Assembly: GCA_002255985.1 (NCBI GenBank)
Contig: NKIR01000001.1
Location: 62,001-126,000, forward strand
DNA length: 64,000 nt
Direction of reading: 5' to 3'
Source of the DNA: Sphingomonadaceae bacterium PASS1
GTDB taxonomy: Bacteria; Pseudomonadota; Alphaproteobacteria; Sphingomonadales; Sphingomonadaceae
Below the pieces are notes generated by a model. That model saw only the letters and a list, made by a program, of their open reading frames with translations. It was not told where the DNA came from and did not search any database. The position numbers and the translations under genes were made by a program. This document shows positions 54,615 through 61,512 of this stretch, in pieces; position 1 is the stretch's first letter, and the number at the start of each line of letters is the position of its first letter.

Positions 54615-55045
54615 GCGATTCCGCTCTATACAATCGCGACATACTTCGCCTCGCGACCGCATTGGTCGCAAATGACCGCCTTGAAAATCCCGACGGGTCG
54701 GCAGAGGTCCGATCCCCGGTTTGCGGAAGCCGGATGCAGGCAGATGTCATGACCGACGCAAGCGGGCATATACGCGGGCTGGCCTTGCGCGCAAACGCCT
54801 GCGCCTTGGGTCAGGCCTCGGCTGCCATTTTGCGACAGAATGCCGACGGGTTGAGCCTATCGATGCTGAATGAACTGCGCGACGGCATTGCGCATGCATT
54901 AAAGCGTGAGGGCGCGATGCCCGATATTTGGCCTGAACTGGATTTGCTTTCCGCGGCAAGTGATTATCCGTCACGACATGCGGCCATCTTGCTGCCCTAT
55001 GATGCGGTTCTGGCTGCGGCGCAGAATATCAAAGAAAAAAGCTGA
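54611..55045 (+). CDS. NifU/IscU-like iron-sulfur scaffold homologue lacking the third cysteine
   Basis: A 144-residue protein of the IscU-like fold. Two scaffold cysteines are in SPVCGSRMQADV (Cys38) and ANACALGQAS (Cys64), but the third position, normally R-x-x-C near residue 125, reads YPSRHAAILLPYDAV, without Cys. It starts at GTG 54611 overlapping cvpA; the frame extends upstream without conserved sequence. It may be a degenerate or specialised scaffold rather than a normal SufU/IscU (inference). No other Fe-S assembly gene is close. Confidence 0.75.
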   Translation: MSDSALYNRDILRLATALVANDRLENPDGSAEVRSPVCGSRMQADVMTDASGHIRGLALRANACALGQASAAILRQNADGLSLSMLNELRDGIAHALKREGAMPDIWPELDLLSAASDYPSRHAAILLPYDAVLAAAQNIKEKS

Positions 55046-56831
55046 TGGAGGACGCGCCGCATAATCTTGTTGCGGACGTGATGCTCGGCGGGGTTGTCTT
55101 GCTGGGCGCAGCGCTGATATCCGTTCTTATTTTCCGCCGCCTCGGCCTTGGTGCTGTGCTCGGGTATCTGGCTGCCGGTATCGCCATCGGTCCGGATGGT
55201 CTTGGCCTAATCGGCGCGCCAGAGACGATATTGGCCTATTCGGAAATCGGCATCATATTGCTCTTTTCCTCGTCGGGTTGGAACTATCGCCCAGCCGGTT
55301 GTGGCTGTTGCGCAGGGATATTTTGTTGTTCGGTCCGCTGCAGGTGACGCTCTGTGGCCTTGGCATGTTTGCGATCATTCGCTTCGCCATGCCGACCTTC
55401 AGTTGGGAAGCGGCGTTGGTGCTTGGCCTGCCGCTTGCCTTATCATCCACCGCGCAGGTCCTGCCGCTGCTGCAATCGCGTGGCCGCATGAAAACCGACT
55501 ATGGCGAAAAAAGCTTCTCCATCCTGTTGTTTCAGGACATTTCGATTGTCCCATTGCTGACGATTGTCGCCGCATTGTCGCGTGCACCGGCAGATGACGG
55601 CGCCATTACGGGCTGGCGGCTGGTTCTATATGCGGTCCTCGCCATATTGGGGCTGGTGCTCGCCGGGCGCTGTTTGCTGTCGCCATTGTTGCGGCTTGTC
55701 GGCAAGATTTCCGAACGTGAACTGTTCATTGTCACGGGGCTGTTCACGGTTTGCGTGAGCGCGGCGGTCATGCAGTCGATTGGCGTGTCGCCTGCATTGA
55801 GGGCGTTTGTTGCAGGCGTGATGCTGGCAGAATCGCCGTACCGGCATGAGCTTGAGGCGGATATTGATCCGTTTCGATCGATCCTGCTGGGTCTGTTTTT
55901 CCTTGCGGTCGGCATGTTGCTCGATGTTGACGTCATTCTTGCCCAGCCGCTATTTGTTGCGGGGCTTGCGCTGGCGTTGGTCACCGTCAAAATTGCCATC
56001 ATCTTTGCGCTTGGCCGGTTCTTTGGATTGAAGAGCAAGCCGTCCATCATCATGGCCATGCTGTTGAGCCAGGGCGGGGAATTCGCATTTGTGTTGTTCA
56101 CTGCGGCGCAGCAAGCGTTGTTGATTGAGCCGGAGGCTGCGAGCCTATTTGGCGCGGTGGTAACGCTGTCGATGGCGTCGACGCCTTTCTTGATGATTAT
56201 TGCCGGCAAGCTGGCGGCACATAAGCCCAAAAGTGCCGCCCAGCTTGATGACCCTGCGTTGGCTTCGCAAGCCAATGTGATCATCGTTGGCCATGGCCGG
56301 TTCGGGCAACAGGTGTCGCAGATTATGCAGGCCGCGGGCCGGTCGGTCACGCTCATCGATATTAACCCACGGACAATCGACACAAGCGGCGAATTTGGTG
56401 TCAAAGTCTTCTACGGCGATGGAACACGCATTGATTTGTTGCAGCGGGCAGGGGGCGAGGACGCGCAGGCGATATTCTTCTGCATCGACGACCGGCACAT
56501 GACCGCAGAGTCATTGATGCCCGTGCGTGAGACATTTCCACGCACCAAGCTGTTTGTGCGCGCATATGACCGGCAACAGGCGCTGGCGTTAATGGAAGAT
56601 GACGGCATCAGTATTATCCGCGAGCTATTTGAATCGTCGATCCGCATGTCGGTCGATGCGCTCAAGTTCTTCGGAACTGAACGCGAGGCTATTCATGAGA
56701 TCGTCGCCGAATTCCGCCGGCGCGACCGAAGCCGACTAAAAGCGCAGTTCTCCAGCGGCGATATGCACGCCGGTAAACAGCATAGCTTTGGCGGTGATGA
56801 TTCGGATGATTTCCTGATCGCTCAGGATTGA
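55045..56831 (+). pseudogene. Monovalent cation:proton antiporter (CPA2, KefB/KefC-like) with a frameshift
   Basis: Membrane antiporter with a C-terminal TrkA-N domain. The N-terminal part (55045 to about 55265) reads IGPDGLGLI and SEIGIILLF, then leaves frame. The family continuation LFLVGLELSPSRLWLLRRD is encoded in another frame from about 55264 and runs intact to 56831, with a Rossmann VIIVGHGRFGQQVSQ and FGVKVFYGDGTR. The whole span is 1787 bases, 2 more than a multiple of 3, so one base seems missing near CTCTTTTCCT (55261-55270). The rest is intact, so this is either a very recent mutation or a sequence error. It starts on the last base of the NifU-like stop and ends 10 bases into convergent aroB. 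Confidence 0.88.
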
Positions 56832-57928
56832 GCTTCATCGTCGAGGAAGGCCGCGACGTCATCCAGTACAACGTCCTTGGACAGGAAGGTTTGCCCTATG
56901 CCTCGCGCGAGCAAGAAGGGCAAAGTGCCGCCGCTCATTTTTTTGTCATGCCGCATATAATCCACCAGCAACGCGCCGTTCGCGGTGACGCCAGCATCTG
57001 AAAGCGTGGTGGGTAAGCCGGCCGCCTTCAGCAGCTGCGACACGCGCTTGGCATCTTCTACGGAGCACAGGCCAAGCCGGACGGAATACCGAAACGCCAG
57101 CGCCATGCCCGCTGCGACGGCTTCGCCGTGGAACAGTCTATCGGAAAAACCTGTGTCGGCTTCCAACGCATGGCCAAAGGTATGGCCCAGGTTCAACAGT
57201 GCCCGTGTGCCCGTGCGTTCGGTCTCGTCAGCGGCGACGATGCGCGCTTTGGATTGAACCGATGTTATGATGGCCCGTGCGCGAATGGCGGGGTCTCCGG
57301 CAAAGAAACTGTCCAGATTGTCTTCGCAATATCGGAAGAATTCGGGATCATCGATCAGGCCATATTTGACCACTTCGGCAAAGCCAGCCGCCAATTGGCG
57401 TGGCGGTAGAGTCGACAACAATTCAGGGTCGATCAGCACCAATGCGGGCTGATGAAATGCACCGACGAGGTTTTTGCCTGCCACACTGTTGATCGCGGTC
57501 TTGCCACCGACGCTGCTGTCCACTTGCGCCAGCAAGGTCGTCGGGATTTGCACGAACGAACAGCCGCGCTTCACAATATGCGTTGCAAAACCCGTGATGT
57601 CGCCGACAACACCGCCGCCTAACGCGATGACATGATCGCTGCGTTCTACATGCTGTGATAGCATCCAGTCGGTCAGCTTTTCCAGCTCAGCCCAGCTTTT
57701 TCCAGCCTCACCCGCGGGCAAAATATACACCGCCATTCTCACGCCAGCGGCGGAGAGCACGACTTCAATCGCAGGCCAGACAGCGCGGGCAACATTTTCG
57801 TCTGTGACCACCAACAACCGGTTGTCGCGCGTATAAGGAAGCAGATATTCTGGCGCCTGTGCCATTAAGCCCGCACGGACATGAATGTCATAAGGTGCAT
57901 TGGTCAGGTCGACGGAAATGACGGTCAT
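56822..57928 (-). CDS. aroB: 3-dehydroquinate synthase
   Basis: Second step of the shikimate pathway, DAHP to dehydroquinate, NAD- and Zn-dependent. The 368 residues have VIALGGGVVGDITGFATHIV, FVQIPTTLLAQVDSSVGGKT and the metal-site region LNLGHTFGHALEADTG with HGEAVAAGMALAFRY. The start overlaps the aroK stop by 4 bases, the usual aroK-aroB pair. Confidence 0.96.
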   Translation of the reverse strand: MTVISVDLTNAPYDIHVRAGLMAQAPEYLLPYTRDNRLLVVTDENVARAVWPAIEVVLSAAGVRMAVYILPAGEAGKSWAELEKLTDWMLSQHVERSDHVIALGGGVVGDITGFATHIVKRGCSFVQIPTTLLAQVDSSVGGKTAINSVAGKNLVGAFHQPALVLIDPELLSTLPPRQLAAGFAEVVKYGLIDDPEFFRYCEDNLDSFFAGDPAIRARAIITSVQSKARIVAADETERTGTRALLNLGHTFGHALEADTGFSDRLFHGEAVAAGMALAFRYSVRLGLCSVEDAKRVSQLLKAAGLPTTLSDAGVTANGALLVDYMRHDKKMSGGTLPFLLARGIGQTFLSKDVVLDDVAAFLDDEAQS

Positions 57929-58488
57929 TGGGCAAGGGCCTTCAGGATATTTTCAACGGTCCGCATATGCGGCGATGTATCGCTGCGAATATGGATATTG
58001 GCCGTCGCATAAAGCGGGTTGCGAGTCTTGCCAAGTTCCGTCAGGACTTCAATAGGGTCCTTATCCTTTAGCAAAGGCCGGTGGCTGCGCCGACCAACGC
58101 GGTCGGCCAGTACTTTTACGTCCGCGTCCAGCCAAATCGATATCGCGCGCTCCAATATCAGTGCGCGGGTGTCCGCATTGACGAACGCGCCGCCGCCTGT
58201 GGCGATAATCTTTGGCGCACCCTCGACAAGCCGCGCGATAACCCGTCGCTCTCCATCGCGAAAATAGCCTTCGCCGAACTTTTCGAATATTTCGGAAATG
58301 GAAAGTCCCGCGGCACGTTCAATTTCATCGTCAGCATCGGCAAAAGGCACGTTCAACCGGGCAGCTAGGCGTTTTCCAATGCTGCTTTTGCCCACGCCCA
58401 TCATCCCGACCAGAACGACCGGCCGGTCAATTACCTGGTCAGTTACTGTTCGGTCGTTGCCGATTTTTTGTTCATCGTTTCCGGGCAT
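57925..58488 (-). CDS. aroK: Shikimate kinase
   Basis: Phosphorylates shikimate with ATP. From ATG 58488 the 187 residues have a short non-conserved lead, the P-loop VLVGMMGVGKSSIGKRLAAR, the shikimate-binding DADDEIERAAGLSISEIFE and GEGYFRDGERRVI, IIATGGGAFV and the lid RVGRRSHRPLL. The frame runs upstream to 58539 without conserved sequence. It diverges from the small membrane-protein locus by 65 bases. Confidence 0.95.
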   Translation of the reverse strand: MPGNDEQKIGNDRTVTDQVIDRPVVLVGMMGVGKSSIGKRLAARLNVPFADADDEIERAAGLSISEIFEKFGEGYFRDGERRVIARLVEGAPKIIATGGGAFVNADTRALILERAISIWLDADVKVLADRVGRRSHRPLLKDKDPIEVLTELGKTRNPLYATANIHIRSDTSPHMRTVENILKALAQ

Positions 58489-58553
58489 TGCGACACCGCC
58501 TATATATCGGCTATTCCCAACCCGAAAGTAATTTGCCACTTGTCCGGAAAATT

Positions 58554-58746
58554 ATGGAAAAGCATTATATTACACAAGGCCCCAAGAGCGGCGGACGTAA
58601 AAACGGGGTTTTTGCGCTTTCTAATTGTTGCGGCAGTGGCATTTGGCTTGCTACTCTGGCGTGCATGGTTAGGCGGTGAACAACTTATGCAGATAAGAGA
58701 AATTGCAGTGCAGCCCCAAACATTTGAAACAGGTTCGCGTCATTGA
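58554..58746 (+). pseudogene. Small single-pass membrane protein, probably frameshifted
   Basis: From ATG 58554 one frame reads MEKHYITQGPKSGGRKNG, a plausible hydrophilic N-terminus, but then ends quickly without a recognisable segment. One base on, another frame reads FLRFLIVAAVAFGLLLWRAW (a clear membrane segment) followed by GEQLMQIREIAV, with a stop at 58744-58746 that overlaps the TTG start of the next gene. The switch falls at the homopolymer pair GGGG-TTTTT (58605-58613), where one extra base would explain it. Joined, they give a protein of about 63 residues. The alternative is a TTG start at 58540 in the second frame, needing no frameshift. No family is recognised. Confidence 0.4.
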
Positions 58747-60554
58747 CTGATAAAATAACAAAAGGCGGGCTTTTGGCGGCAGCCGCTGTCGTCCTCGCAT
58801 TTGCTTTGCCCGCATTGGGGCAGCAGGGTCCGGAGTCACTTCTTCCCGAAGGCTTTGGCGACCCCGCGCCGTCAGCACCCAATAACCCCGCGCGTCCTTC
58901 GTCTTCTCCAACACCGTCAACCGCCAAGACCGGAACATCATCGGCAAACCCGGCATCGGCTGAAGTCAGTGGGGACACTGTGGCGGACGAAACGGACGCG
59001 GCAGATGATGAAGACGACGCACAAGAAATGGTCGTTCGGTATGACGTTCCACCTGCTGCGCGTCGTTCCCTCAATGCAATTGGCATTATCTCCGAAACAT
59101 CGGGTGGATTTCCAGCCGCGTCGTTTGGCGTGACCAGTGGCGTTTTCCTTAAACAGGTTGTCGAACGCACATCGGGTCCAATCGCGTCGCGTTGGGGCAG
59201 TATCATGGCACGGCGGTTGCTCGCCAGCCGGACCAATACGCCACAGGGAGTAAACGGCGCGGACTGGACCGCAGAACGGGCGTGGCTGTTGCTGCGCATG
59301 GGAGACTCAGTTGTCGCACGTGGGCTTGTTCAGCAAGTCGACGCTGGCAACTATACCAAACGGCTTCATGAGGTTGCGATGCAGACCTATCTCGCCAATG
59401 GCGACCTGGCGGGCATATGTCCTTTGACGGAAGGCGGCGTTCGCCTTGTGAACAGCGGGCGTTGGAAAATGTCGCGCGCTATTTGTGCTTCGCTCGCTGG
59501 CGAACAAGGGAGCGCAACGGGGTTCATCAATCAGGGACGCTATCAGGGCTGGGTTCGGGGTGTCGATTATCTCTTAACCGAAAAGGCCGTGGGTGCGGGC
59601 ATCAATGGTCGCCGGTCGGTTAAAATCGAATGGGATGGCGTTGAGGGGATGAACCCATGGCGCTTTGGTTTGTCCGCCGCCGTTGGTCTTGAGCCACCGG
59701 AGCAGTTGTTCAGCAAGAGCGGCCGCCAGATTAACGGATGGCGTGCGCAATTGCCCATGTTTGCACCCGCCATACGCGCCAAATACGCACCCGGTGCCGC
59801 GGCGCTTGGGGTATTTTCCAACCGCGATATGGTCGATCTCTATGCGCAGGTTCTTGATGATCCCGATGCGCCTGACGCGATGAAAACGCAGGCTGAAAAT
59901 CTGGGTAATGCTTACACGGCATCCGGCGATTCCGGAAAAGTCTCGGCGATGGCGTCGATTTGGGGCGCAGAGCGGACGGGTGCGGACTATCTGGCGGCGC
60001 TTGTCATGACGGCACGGGCGGCAGCGCTTATAGACCCAAGTGCAGACCATGTTGGGCAGGCGGATGGGTTGATTGCATCTATGCTGACGGCTGGGCTTGA
60101 TCGTTCGGCGGCGCGATGGAGCAATATCGTCTCCGGCGGGTCGCTTGGTTGGGCGCTTGTCACCTTGGGCGCACCCGGCCGCGTTACTCTGGCGGATTAT
60201 GGCGATCTCGATGAATTTTACGGCAATGACGACAGCGTTGAAGGGCATAAGTCCGGGCTTTTGCTTGCCGGACTTGCCGGGCTGGGCCGCGTTGAATCCG
60301 GCGCACGCACTGATTTTGCGGGCGATCTGAAGATAAACATTGCGCGGCAAACGGCTTGGTCAAAAGCGATTACGGCCGCCGCAGATCGCGGTGAGCAAGG
60401 CACGGTCGCGCTGATGGCGATTGCTGGAATGCAGGCACCGTCATGGGCTTCGGTGCCTGCGCATCATGTATATTATATCGTGCGTTCGCTGCGTCAGGTG
60501 GGTCTTGAGGCGGAAGCGCGGATGATTGCGGCCGAAGCGGTCACCCTTGGGTGA
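58743..60554 (+). CDS. Large exported protein of unknown function
   Basis: A 603-residue protein starting at TTG 58743. A signal peptide (GGLLAAAAVVLAFALPALGQ) is followed by a Pro/Ser/Thr- and Asp-rich linker (about 30-95) and then a long, mostly helical-looking body with repeated Ala/Leu/Gly patterns (AERAWLLLRMGDSVVARGLV, MTARAAALIDPSADHVGQAD, LLAGLAGLGRVESGA). These resemble TPR-like or Sel1-like helical repeats only loosely. No catalytic motif is visible. It overlaps the small membrane ORF by 4 bases (TTGA) and xerD follows 31 bases on. I do not recognise the family; homologues seem to be kept next to xerD-accA in sphingomonads (recollection, not checked). Confidence 0.75.
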   Translation: MTDKITKGGLLAAAAVVLAFALPALGQQGPESLLPEGFGDPAPSAPNNPARPSSSPTPSTAKTGTSSANPASAEVSGDTVADETDAADDEDDAQEMVVRYDVPPAARRSLNAIGIISETSGGFPAASFGVTSGVFLKQVVERTSGPIASRWGSIMARRLLASRTNTPQGVNGADWTAERAWLLLRMGDSVVARGLVQQVDAGNYTKRLHEVAMQTYLANGDLAGICPLTEGGVRLVNSGRWKMSRAICASLAGEQGSATGFINQGRYQGWVRGVDYLLTEKAVGAGINGRRSVKIEWDGVEGMNPWRFGLSAAVGLEPPEQLFSKSGRQINGWRAQLPMFAPAIRAKYAPGAAALGVFSNRDMVDLYAQVLDDPDAPDAMKTQAENLGNAYTASGDSGKVSAMASIWGAERTGADYLAALVMTARAAALIDPSADHVGQADGLIASMLTAGLDRSAARWSNIVSGGSLGWALVTLGAPGRVTLADYGDLDEFYGNDDSVEGHKSGLLLAGLAGLGRVESGARTDFAGDLKINIARQTAWSKAITAAADRGEQGTVALMAIAGMQAPSWASVPAHHVYYIVRSLRQVGLEAEARMIAAEAVTLG

Positions 60555-60585: not shown

Positions 60586-61512
60586 ATGAGCGCGACGGAC
60601 CGCGATCTGATAGCGCGCTTCATTGAAATGATGGCGGCTGAGCAGGGCGTTGCTGCAAACACCAGCGCTGCCTATGCGAGCGACTTGCTGGCGGCTTCCA
60701 GCCTGACCAGTGGAAAGCTCGCACATGCCAATGCCGATATGTTGGTGACGCTTTCAAGCCATTGGCGCGACCTTGCCAACAGTTCAGTCGCGCGCAAATC
60801 ATCGGTACTCCGGCGCTTTTTCGCGTTTTTGCATGAGGAGGGTTTTCGCGCTGATAATCCGTCCGCCGCTTTGCCCAAGCCGGCGCAAGTGCGCGCGCTG
60901 CCGAAGATCCTTGATACGGCGGAGGTCGATCTTTTGTTCGCCGCAATCGAGGCGAAGCTTGCGCAGCCCGCGCCTGCGTCCACGGATTATCGGCTGTCAG
61001 CGCTGATTGAGCTGCTCTACGGCTCCGGCTTGCGTGCGACCGAGCTGGTTGCGCTGCCGCGAAGTGCGATCGTGTCGGACAAGCCGTTCATTATCGTCAA
61101 GGGCAAGGGCGCGAAGGAACGGATGGTCCCCATTTCAAATCGTGCGCGGCAGGCGGTTGGAACATGGCTTGCGTTCGTTCCGGAAAAGTCGCGCTTTTTG
61201 TTTCCGTCGCGCGCGGGGCATATTAGCCGTATTCGGCTGTTTCAGATTATCAAGGCGCTCGCGGCCCAATCCGGTTTAGATCCGGCCAAGGTCAGCCCCC
61301 ATGTCCTGCGGCATGCCTTTGCAACGCATCTTTTGGCGGGCGGTGCGAACCTAAGGGCGCTTCAGGCGATGTTGGGCCATGTCGATATCGCCACCACGCA
61401 AATTTACACGCATGTGGACAGCAGCCGTCTGGTGGAATTGGTCAACCGCAGGCACCCGCTGGCAATGCGCACGTTGACCCGTGGCGCGACAGGCTCTAAC
61501 CGGCAATCATGA
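60586..61512 (+). CDS. xerD: Tyrosine recombinase XerD
   Basis: Partner of XerC in dimer resolution at dif. The 308 residues have the N-terminal SAM-like domain (AANTSAAYASDLLAASSLTS), Arg in LLYGSGLRATELVAL, Lys in IVKGKGAKERMVPIS, HVLRHAFATHLLAGGANLRA and MLGHVDIATTQIYTHVDSSR with the nucleophile Tyr. Its TGA overlaps the accA ATG. XerD rather than XerC by the YTHV-x-x-x-R ending and by the accA neighbour. Confidence 0.9.
   Translation: MSATDRDLIARFIEMMAAEQGVAANTSAAYASDLLAASSLTSGKLAHANADMLVTLSSHWRDLANSSVARKSSVLRRFFAFLHEEGFRADNPSAALPKPAQVRALPKILDTAEVDLLFAAIEAKLAQPAPASTDYRLSALIELLYGSGLRATELVALPRSAIVSDKPFIIVKGKGAKERMVPISNRARQAVGTWLAFVPEKSRFLFPSRAGHISRIRLFQIIKALAAQSGLDPAKVSPHVLRHAFATHLLAGGANLRALQAMLGHVDIATTQIYTHVDSSRLVELVNRRHPLAMRTLTRGATGSNRQS

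Follow-up and report, generated by a model that had tools for sequence, protein, structure and literature searches.

Periplasmic TPR-like solenoids such as LpoA and CpoB act in peptidoglycan synthesis and cell division. Together with NlpI, these proteins are among the closest described systems for a gene, here called X, in a stretch of 64,000 nucleotides from Sphingomonadaceae bacterium PASS1 (contig NKIR01000001.1, positions 62,001 to 126,000), which as a whole is referred to as the window. Like NlpI, LpoA (N-domain) and CpoB/YbgF, X is predicted to be an exported solenoid of helical hairpins without an enzyme motif, presumably serving as a protein-protein platform in the envelope. It differs from them in sequence, to which there is no match, and in its gene neighbourhood, and unlike the lipoproteins NlpI and LpoA it has no lipobox. 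PPR/TPR folds (designed PPR 5i9f, PPR10 4m57) share the hairpin repeats of about 34 residues and are the best structural matches of X, but at E-values of 0.007–0.025 and a TM of about 0.15–0.2 only; PPR proteins bind RNA in organelles, whereas X has a secretion signal and a conserved cysteine pair. The C-terminal domain of FimV/HubP (TIGR03504) gives marginal E-values only, in homologues and not in the window member. The actual orthologues of X are the aroK-xerD intergenic genes of Alphaproteobacteria, for which no Pfam or NCBIfam family, name or literature was found. X represents a new class-wide family within a known kind, the periplasmic helical-repeat proteins. The locus comprises the following genes:

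57925–58539, reverse strand: aroK, divergent, a conserved flank of X
58554–58746, forward strand: eroded gene of a small bitopic membrane protein, with a transmembrane segment from about 58609 and homologues class-wide
58743–60554, forward strand: X, predicted exported TPR-like alpha-solenoid protein, 603 amino acids, TTG start, stop codon included
60586–61512, forward strand: gene of a xerD-like tyrosine recombinase, beginning 31 bp beyond the X stop codon
61509–62453, forward strand: accA, overlapping the end of xerD by 4 bp

The 603-codon frame of X opens with TTG; a stop lies five codons upstream, and there is no earlier in-frame start. Two bases of this TTG also belong to the TGA that ends the small frame before it (58468–58746), an overlap already recorded in the preliminary description of this DNA. 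The TTG start, the weak upstream context and the broken state of the neighbouring small ORF in the PASS1 genome may suggest a spurious or decaying frame that merely resembles a gene. Against this stand a dN/dS of about 0.1, a frame that is open over its full length in congeners, and homologues at the same locus throughout the class. These comparative data had already ruled out such a reading, to which we assign practically no probability, and X looks like a genuine gene for an unstudied envelope component, not an isolated ORF.

Among 40 relatives searched, X was detected in 23 of 24 congeners, the sole congener without it being 72% complete, and weak matches came from three genomes that belong to two other families within the order. 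A profile of 40 rows detected X in 200 of the 290 class genomes sampled (150 of 290 with an earlier profile of 14 rows). In about 30% of this sample, some genomes of 4–8 Mb included, X was not detected, and hence X is not universally required. Outside the class no member was found in a draw of 299 genomes of the phylum, all 61 positives being class members. X mostly occurs in single copy per genome at a fixed locus. Where dS was measurable, dN/dS against close relatives is 0.08–0.11, in most comparisons slightly above the values of xerD and accA; X is under strong purifying selection. Two X-like matches carry in-frame stops (G499:C3:215507–216316 and G501:C33:167372–168184); these are possible pseudogenes and belong to one family (f53).

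All examined congener loci have the order aroK (divergent), X, xerD, accA as far as the contigs extend. In distant class members X is flanked by aroK and xerD with few exceptions, and accA is the usual third neighbour. The gene in the window shows this family arrangement, with a divergent aroK upstream and xerD downstream. The placement of X ahead of xerD and accA had been reported before; it is kept in relatives, and the conserved place beside aroK, xerD and accA holds well beyond Sphingomonadales. From the spacing we infer co-transcription of X with xerD and accA. Promoter and terminator signals around the locus show no excess over shuffled sequences, and thus provide no operon evidence either way.

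The protein encoded by X may be divided as follows:

58743–58820, forward strand: signal peptide, residues 1–26, with signal peptidase I cleavage predicted after ALG and no lipobox
58830–58865, forward strand: mature N-terminal motif PESLLPEGFGDP, residues 30–41, defined by alignment conservation
58866–59042, forward strand: low-complexity linker, residues 42–100, rich in Pro/Ala/Ser and then acidic, of variable length and gapped in alignments
59043–60551, forward strand: predicted all-alpha solenoid, residues 101–603 (AlphaFold2)
59256–59654, forward strand: predicted TPR-like helical hairpins, residues 172–304 (AlphaFold2 helix boundaries)
59418–59420, forward strand: codon of Cys226, invariant in alignments
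59484–59486, forward strand: codon of Cys248, invariant in alignments, putative disulfide partner of Cys226

As read by eye, the signal peptide is MTDKITKGG-LLAAAAVVLAFALPALG, followed by QQG, with ALG-QQG at the cut and no lipobox cysteine. Its start position and hydrophobic stretch are kept in aligned homologues. The cysteine at position +1 that characterizes TPR lipoproteins is absent, the only cysteines of X being residues 226 and 248. Based on these features, X is predicted to be cut by signal peptidase I and retained in the periplasm. Among Sphingomonadales the adjoining motif, PESLLPPGFG(D/E)P, hardly varies; class-wide it relaxes to P-x-x-(L/I)-x-P. S32, P35, G37 and F38 are invariant among 51 aligned sequences, and P30 is conserved at 90% or more in an alignment of 40 sequences from across the class. 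The linker that follows is free to vary, and retention of so short a stretch at the tip of a disordered tether points to a putative docking peptide. The body is rich in Ala, Gly and Leu (96, 69 and 53 residues). Signal peptide, low-complexity linker and Ala/Leu-rich body, all named in the preliminary description, are present at 58743–60554.

An AlphaFold2 model built from 51 aligned sequences has a whole-chain mean pLDDT of 86.1 and a pTM of 0.81, with 471 residues at pLDDT of at least 90. Residues 1–97 are disordered in the model (pLDDT below 50), and residues 98–603 are all-helical, mostly at pLDDT above 90. Tandem antiparallel helix pairs of about 34 residues occupy residues 172–304, where hairpins start at 172, 206, 239 and 273 (spacing 33–34); the autocorrelation of hydrophobicity peaks at a lag of 33. 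Residues 98–603 are predicted with confidence to form one alpha-solenoid with TPR-like hairpin spacing. Structure prediction had been proposed earlier as a check for a TPR- or Sel1-type solenoid, and it returned the TPR type. A Foldseek search of the model against solved structures (PDB) gave no match at E of 0.001 or below. The best matches are PPR proteins, with E from 0.007 and TM-scores of about 0.15–0.25, so the resemblance to known folds is generic. The NlpI structure 8xup appears at rank 45 only, with E 0.55. It follows that the kind of fold is known and that the superhelix has no close solved relative.

All 40 members aligned from across the class have Cys226 and Cys248, as a rule with no other cysteine outside the signal peptide. 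Their spacing is 22–23 residues in 38 of the 40 members and 29 or 33 in the other two; the window protein likewise has its pair in the N-terminal half of the solenoid, at a spacing of about 22. In the AlphaFold2 model Cys226 is placed on helix 222–235 and Cys248 on helix 239–251, about equidistant from the intervening turn. Two invariant cysteines facing each other across neighbouring helices suggest a putative disulfide that would pin two neighbouring hairpins together.

Searches of Pfam, NCBIfam and PDB sequences gave no match for the window protein; for 40 diverse homologues, Pfam and NCBIfam yielded marginal matches only: a weak match to TPR_19 in one of the 40 (E 0.0018) and one to FimV_Cterm (TIGR03504) in two of the 40 (best E 0.0054), the window protein having neither. 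It reaches no model of the Pfam TPR clan at the curated threshold, and in the Pfam-A scan neither X nor its 40 homologues matched a Sel1 model. Foldseek detected no significant fold match (E of 0.001 or below) to a solved TPR lipoprotein of the NlpI, LpoA or BamD type. Membership of a known family was rejected, nothing convincing having appeared in Pfam, NCBIfam, PDB sequences or Foldseek against PDB. X cannot be placed in any TPR lipoprotein family described so far, since lipobox, sequence match and fold match are all lacking; a confident match of this sort, named beforehand as the result that would overturn the initial interpretation, did not occur. Domain fusions were dropped as a functional clue, the longer frames of G080 and G043 being same-frame upstream read-through. 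No literature on the gene was found in open-access papers. A paper on Dinoroseobacter vesicles (PMC7901474) was set aside as a lead; it does not mention aroK, and the X locus was not identified in it. An annotation of X-like proteins as 'antifreeze glycopeptide polyprotein' was not found in papers and was not used.

A few invariant or nearly invariant polar and aromatic residues (R157, R158, R179, W459) may hint at an enzyme whose active site within an alpha-superhelical fold has escaped recognition. However, the invariant residues are chiefly Gly, Pro, Cys, Trp, Leu and Arg, a class-wide catalytic set of His, Asp, Glu or Ser is missing, and there is no match to an enzyme family. Hence, we regard an enzymatic function as very improbable, in line with the absence of a recognizable enzyme motif stated at the outset, which searches of Pfam, NCBIfam and PDB sequences bore out.

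Based on this dataset, we hypothesize that periplasmic scaffold or adaptor proteins form an uncatalogued family in Alphaproteobacteria, with X as its Sphingorhabdus representative, a reading that we consider probable. X would be exported, cleaved by signal peptidase I and left in the periplasm. There, the motif at the mature N-terminus may dock to one partner and the disulfide-pinned solenoid may bind a second in the envelope, with the Pro-rich and acidic linker as a possible long, flexible tether. By analogy with NlpI, LpoA or CpoB, X could serve as a bridge without enzymatic activity during assembly or remodelling of the envelope. Of the initial interpretation, export, the absence of a known family, the TPR-type solenoid and the conserved place stand; the envelope housekeeping role that it had derived from that place is a reasonable inference.

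In a narrower form of the adaptor reading, X would take part in peptidoglycan synthesis or division as an LpoA- or CpoB-like subunit or regulator, placed beside xerD as both act at septation. TPR-like periplasmic solenoids in such a role are known, and xerD is a fixed neighbour. However, proximity is weak evidence when aroK, and often accA, are conserved beside X to the same degree; of 18 sampled genomes that lack MreC, 5 have X, and many genomes with MreC do not; and no peptidoglycan-binding or PBP-docking domain was found in X or its homologues (Pfam, NCBIfam). We consider this narrower role possible but rather unlikely. The phyletic pattern with MreC, namely X in those 5 of 18 MreC-less genomes, also led us to reject a strict tie of X to the Rod system (MreB/MreC). 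The helical-repeat periplasmic architecture of the AlphaFold2 model would likewise suit a scaffold for the assembly or transport of an exported polymer or outer-membrane protein, in the manner of AlgK or BamD. This appears less likely still, as no polysaccharide or secretion genes adjoin X (its neighbours being aroK, xerD and accA) and X lacks the lipid anchor that AlgK and BamD have.

For the broader scaffold or adaptor role, a candidate partner is encoded immediately upstream. The 92-amino-acid small ORF of the window (TTG at 58468) opens inside the 5′ end of aroK, and its relevant part is the transmembrane segment from about 58609. Compared with the three closest relatives (L062, L063, L093), a one-base insertion at about 58611, within a homopolymer-like stretch of A, G and T (58599–58616), breaks the frame that begins at ATG 58554. 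Further damage to the small gene is seen in other freshwater congeners. The frame break could be erosion or an assembly error; an antiporter gene in the same window (55045–56831) is likewise split.

In most Sphingomonadales the small frame ends close before X or overlaps its start, and the protein consists of a short basic segment, one transmembrane helix and a conserved tail, GGEQPQ.RVEK.IPAEKLG. Class-wide it has about 46 amino acids (range 40–60 residues) and ends in ..FLATWDIPAPT..VEKVLPDDRFPR. Its last residues often overlap the start of X in another frame, and conservation of NDRFP may therefore partly reflect X; WDIPAP and VEK precede the overlap. The conserved tail beyond the membrane segment (WDIPAP...VEK..P) should face the periplasm. 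Examples of the gene between aroK and xerD are L037:3377–3514 (reverse strand), L061:3425–3562 (reverse strand) and L096:3777–3962 (forward strand).

Neither Pfam nor NCBIfam holds a model for the small membrane protein; a profile built here matches 190 of 290 class genomes. Among the genomes listed that lie outside the profile set, the match lies −20 to +98 nt from X in 20 of 20. Both proteins were detected in 161 genomes, X only in 39, the small protein only in 29 and neither in 61, counts that include weak matches of the small protein, not all of them confirmed at the locus. Fisher's test gives P 3e-15, a value not to be taken literally, being calculated over related genomes and uncorrected for phylogeny. 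Five genomes with the small protein only were read (L176, L177, L178, L179, L183); they have the order aroK, small gene, xerD, and in them X was lost or never gained and the small gene retained. In the PASS1 lineage, the small gene is broken and X is kept. The idea of a strict pair, in which X requires the small protein, was dropped, as each is found alone.

The small bitopic protein is the likeliest inner-membrane partner of X in most of the class, and would probably act on the membrane side of the proposed bridge. More tentatively, and with less than even expectation, we suggest that most Alphaproteobacteria carry, between aroK and xerD, an overlooked ancestral two-protein envelope module, in which a bitopic micro-protein with the WDIPAP...VEK..P tail and a disulfide-pinned periplasmic TPR-like protein would form a class-specific bridge in envelope assembly or division. 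With one copy at a constant position in most of the class, and with no name, domain model or solved relative, X exposes a blank in what is known of the alphaproteobacterial envelope. Family libraries likewise lack the membrane protein of 40–60 residues, which was detected in roughly two thirds of class genomes. The present alignments suffice for a Pfam-level model.

The antiporter gene of the window encodes a sodium/proton exchanger with a TrkA_N domain (55045–56831, forward strand). Its frame is broken near 55278, either in reality or by assembly error, into the parts 55045–55347 and 55278–56831, which match consecutive portions of PF00999 (profile positions 4–61 and 60–372).
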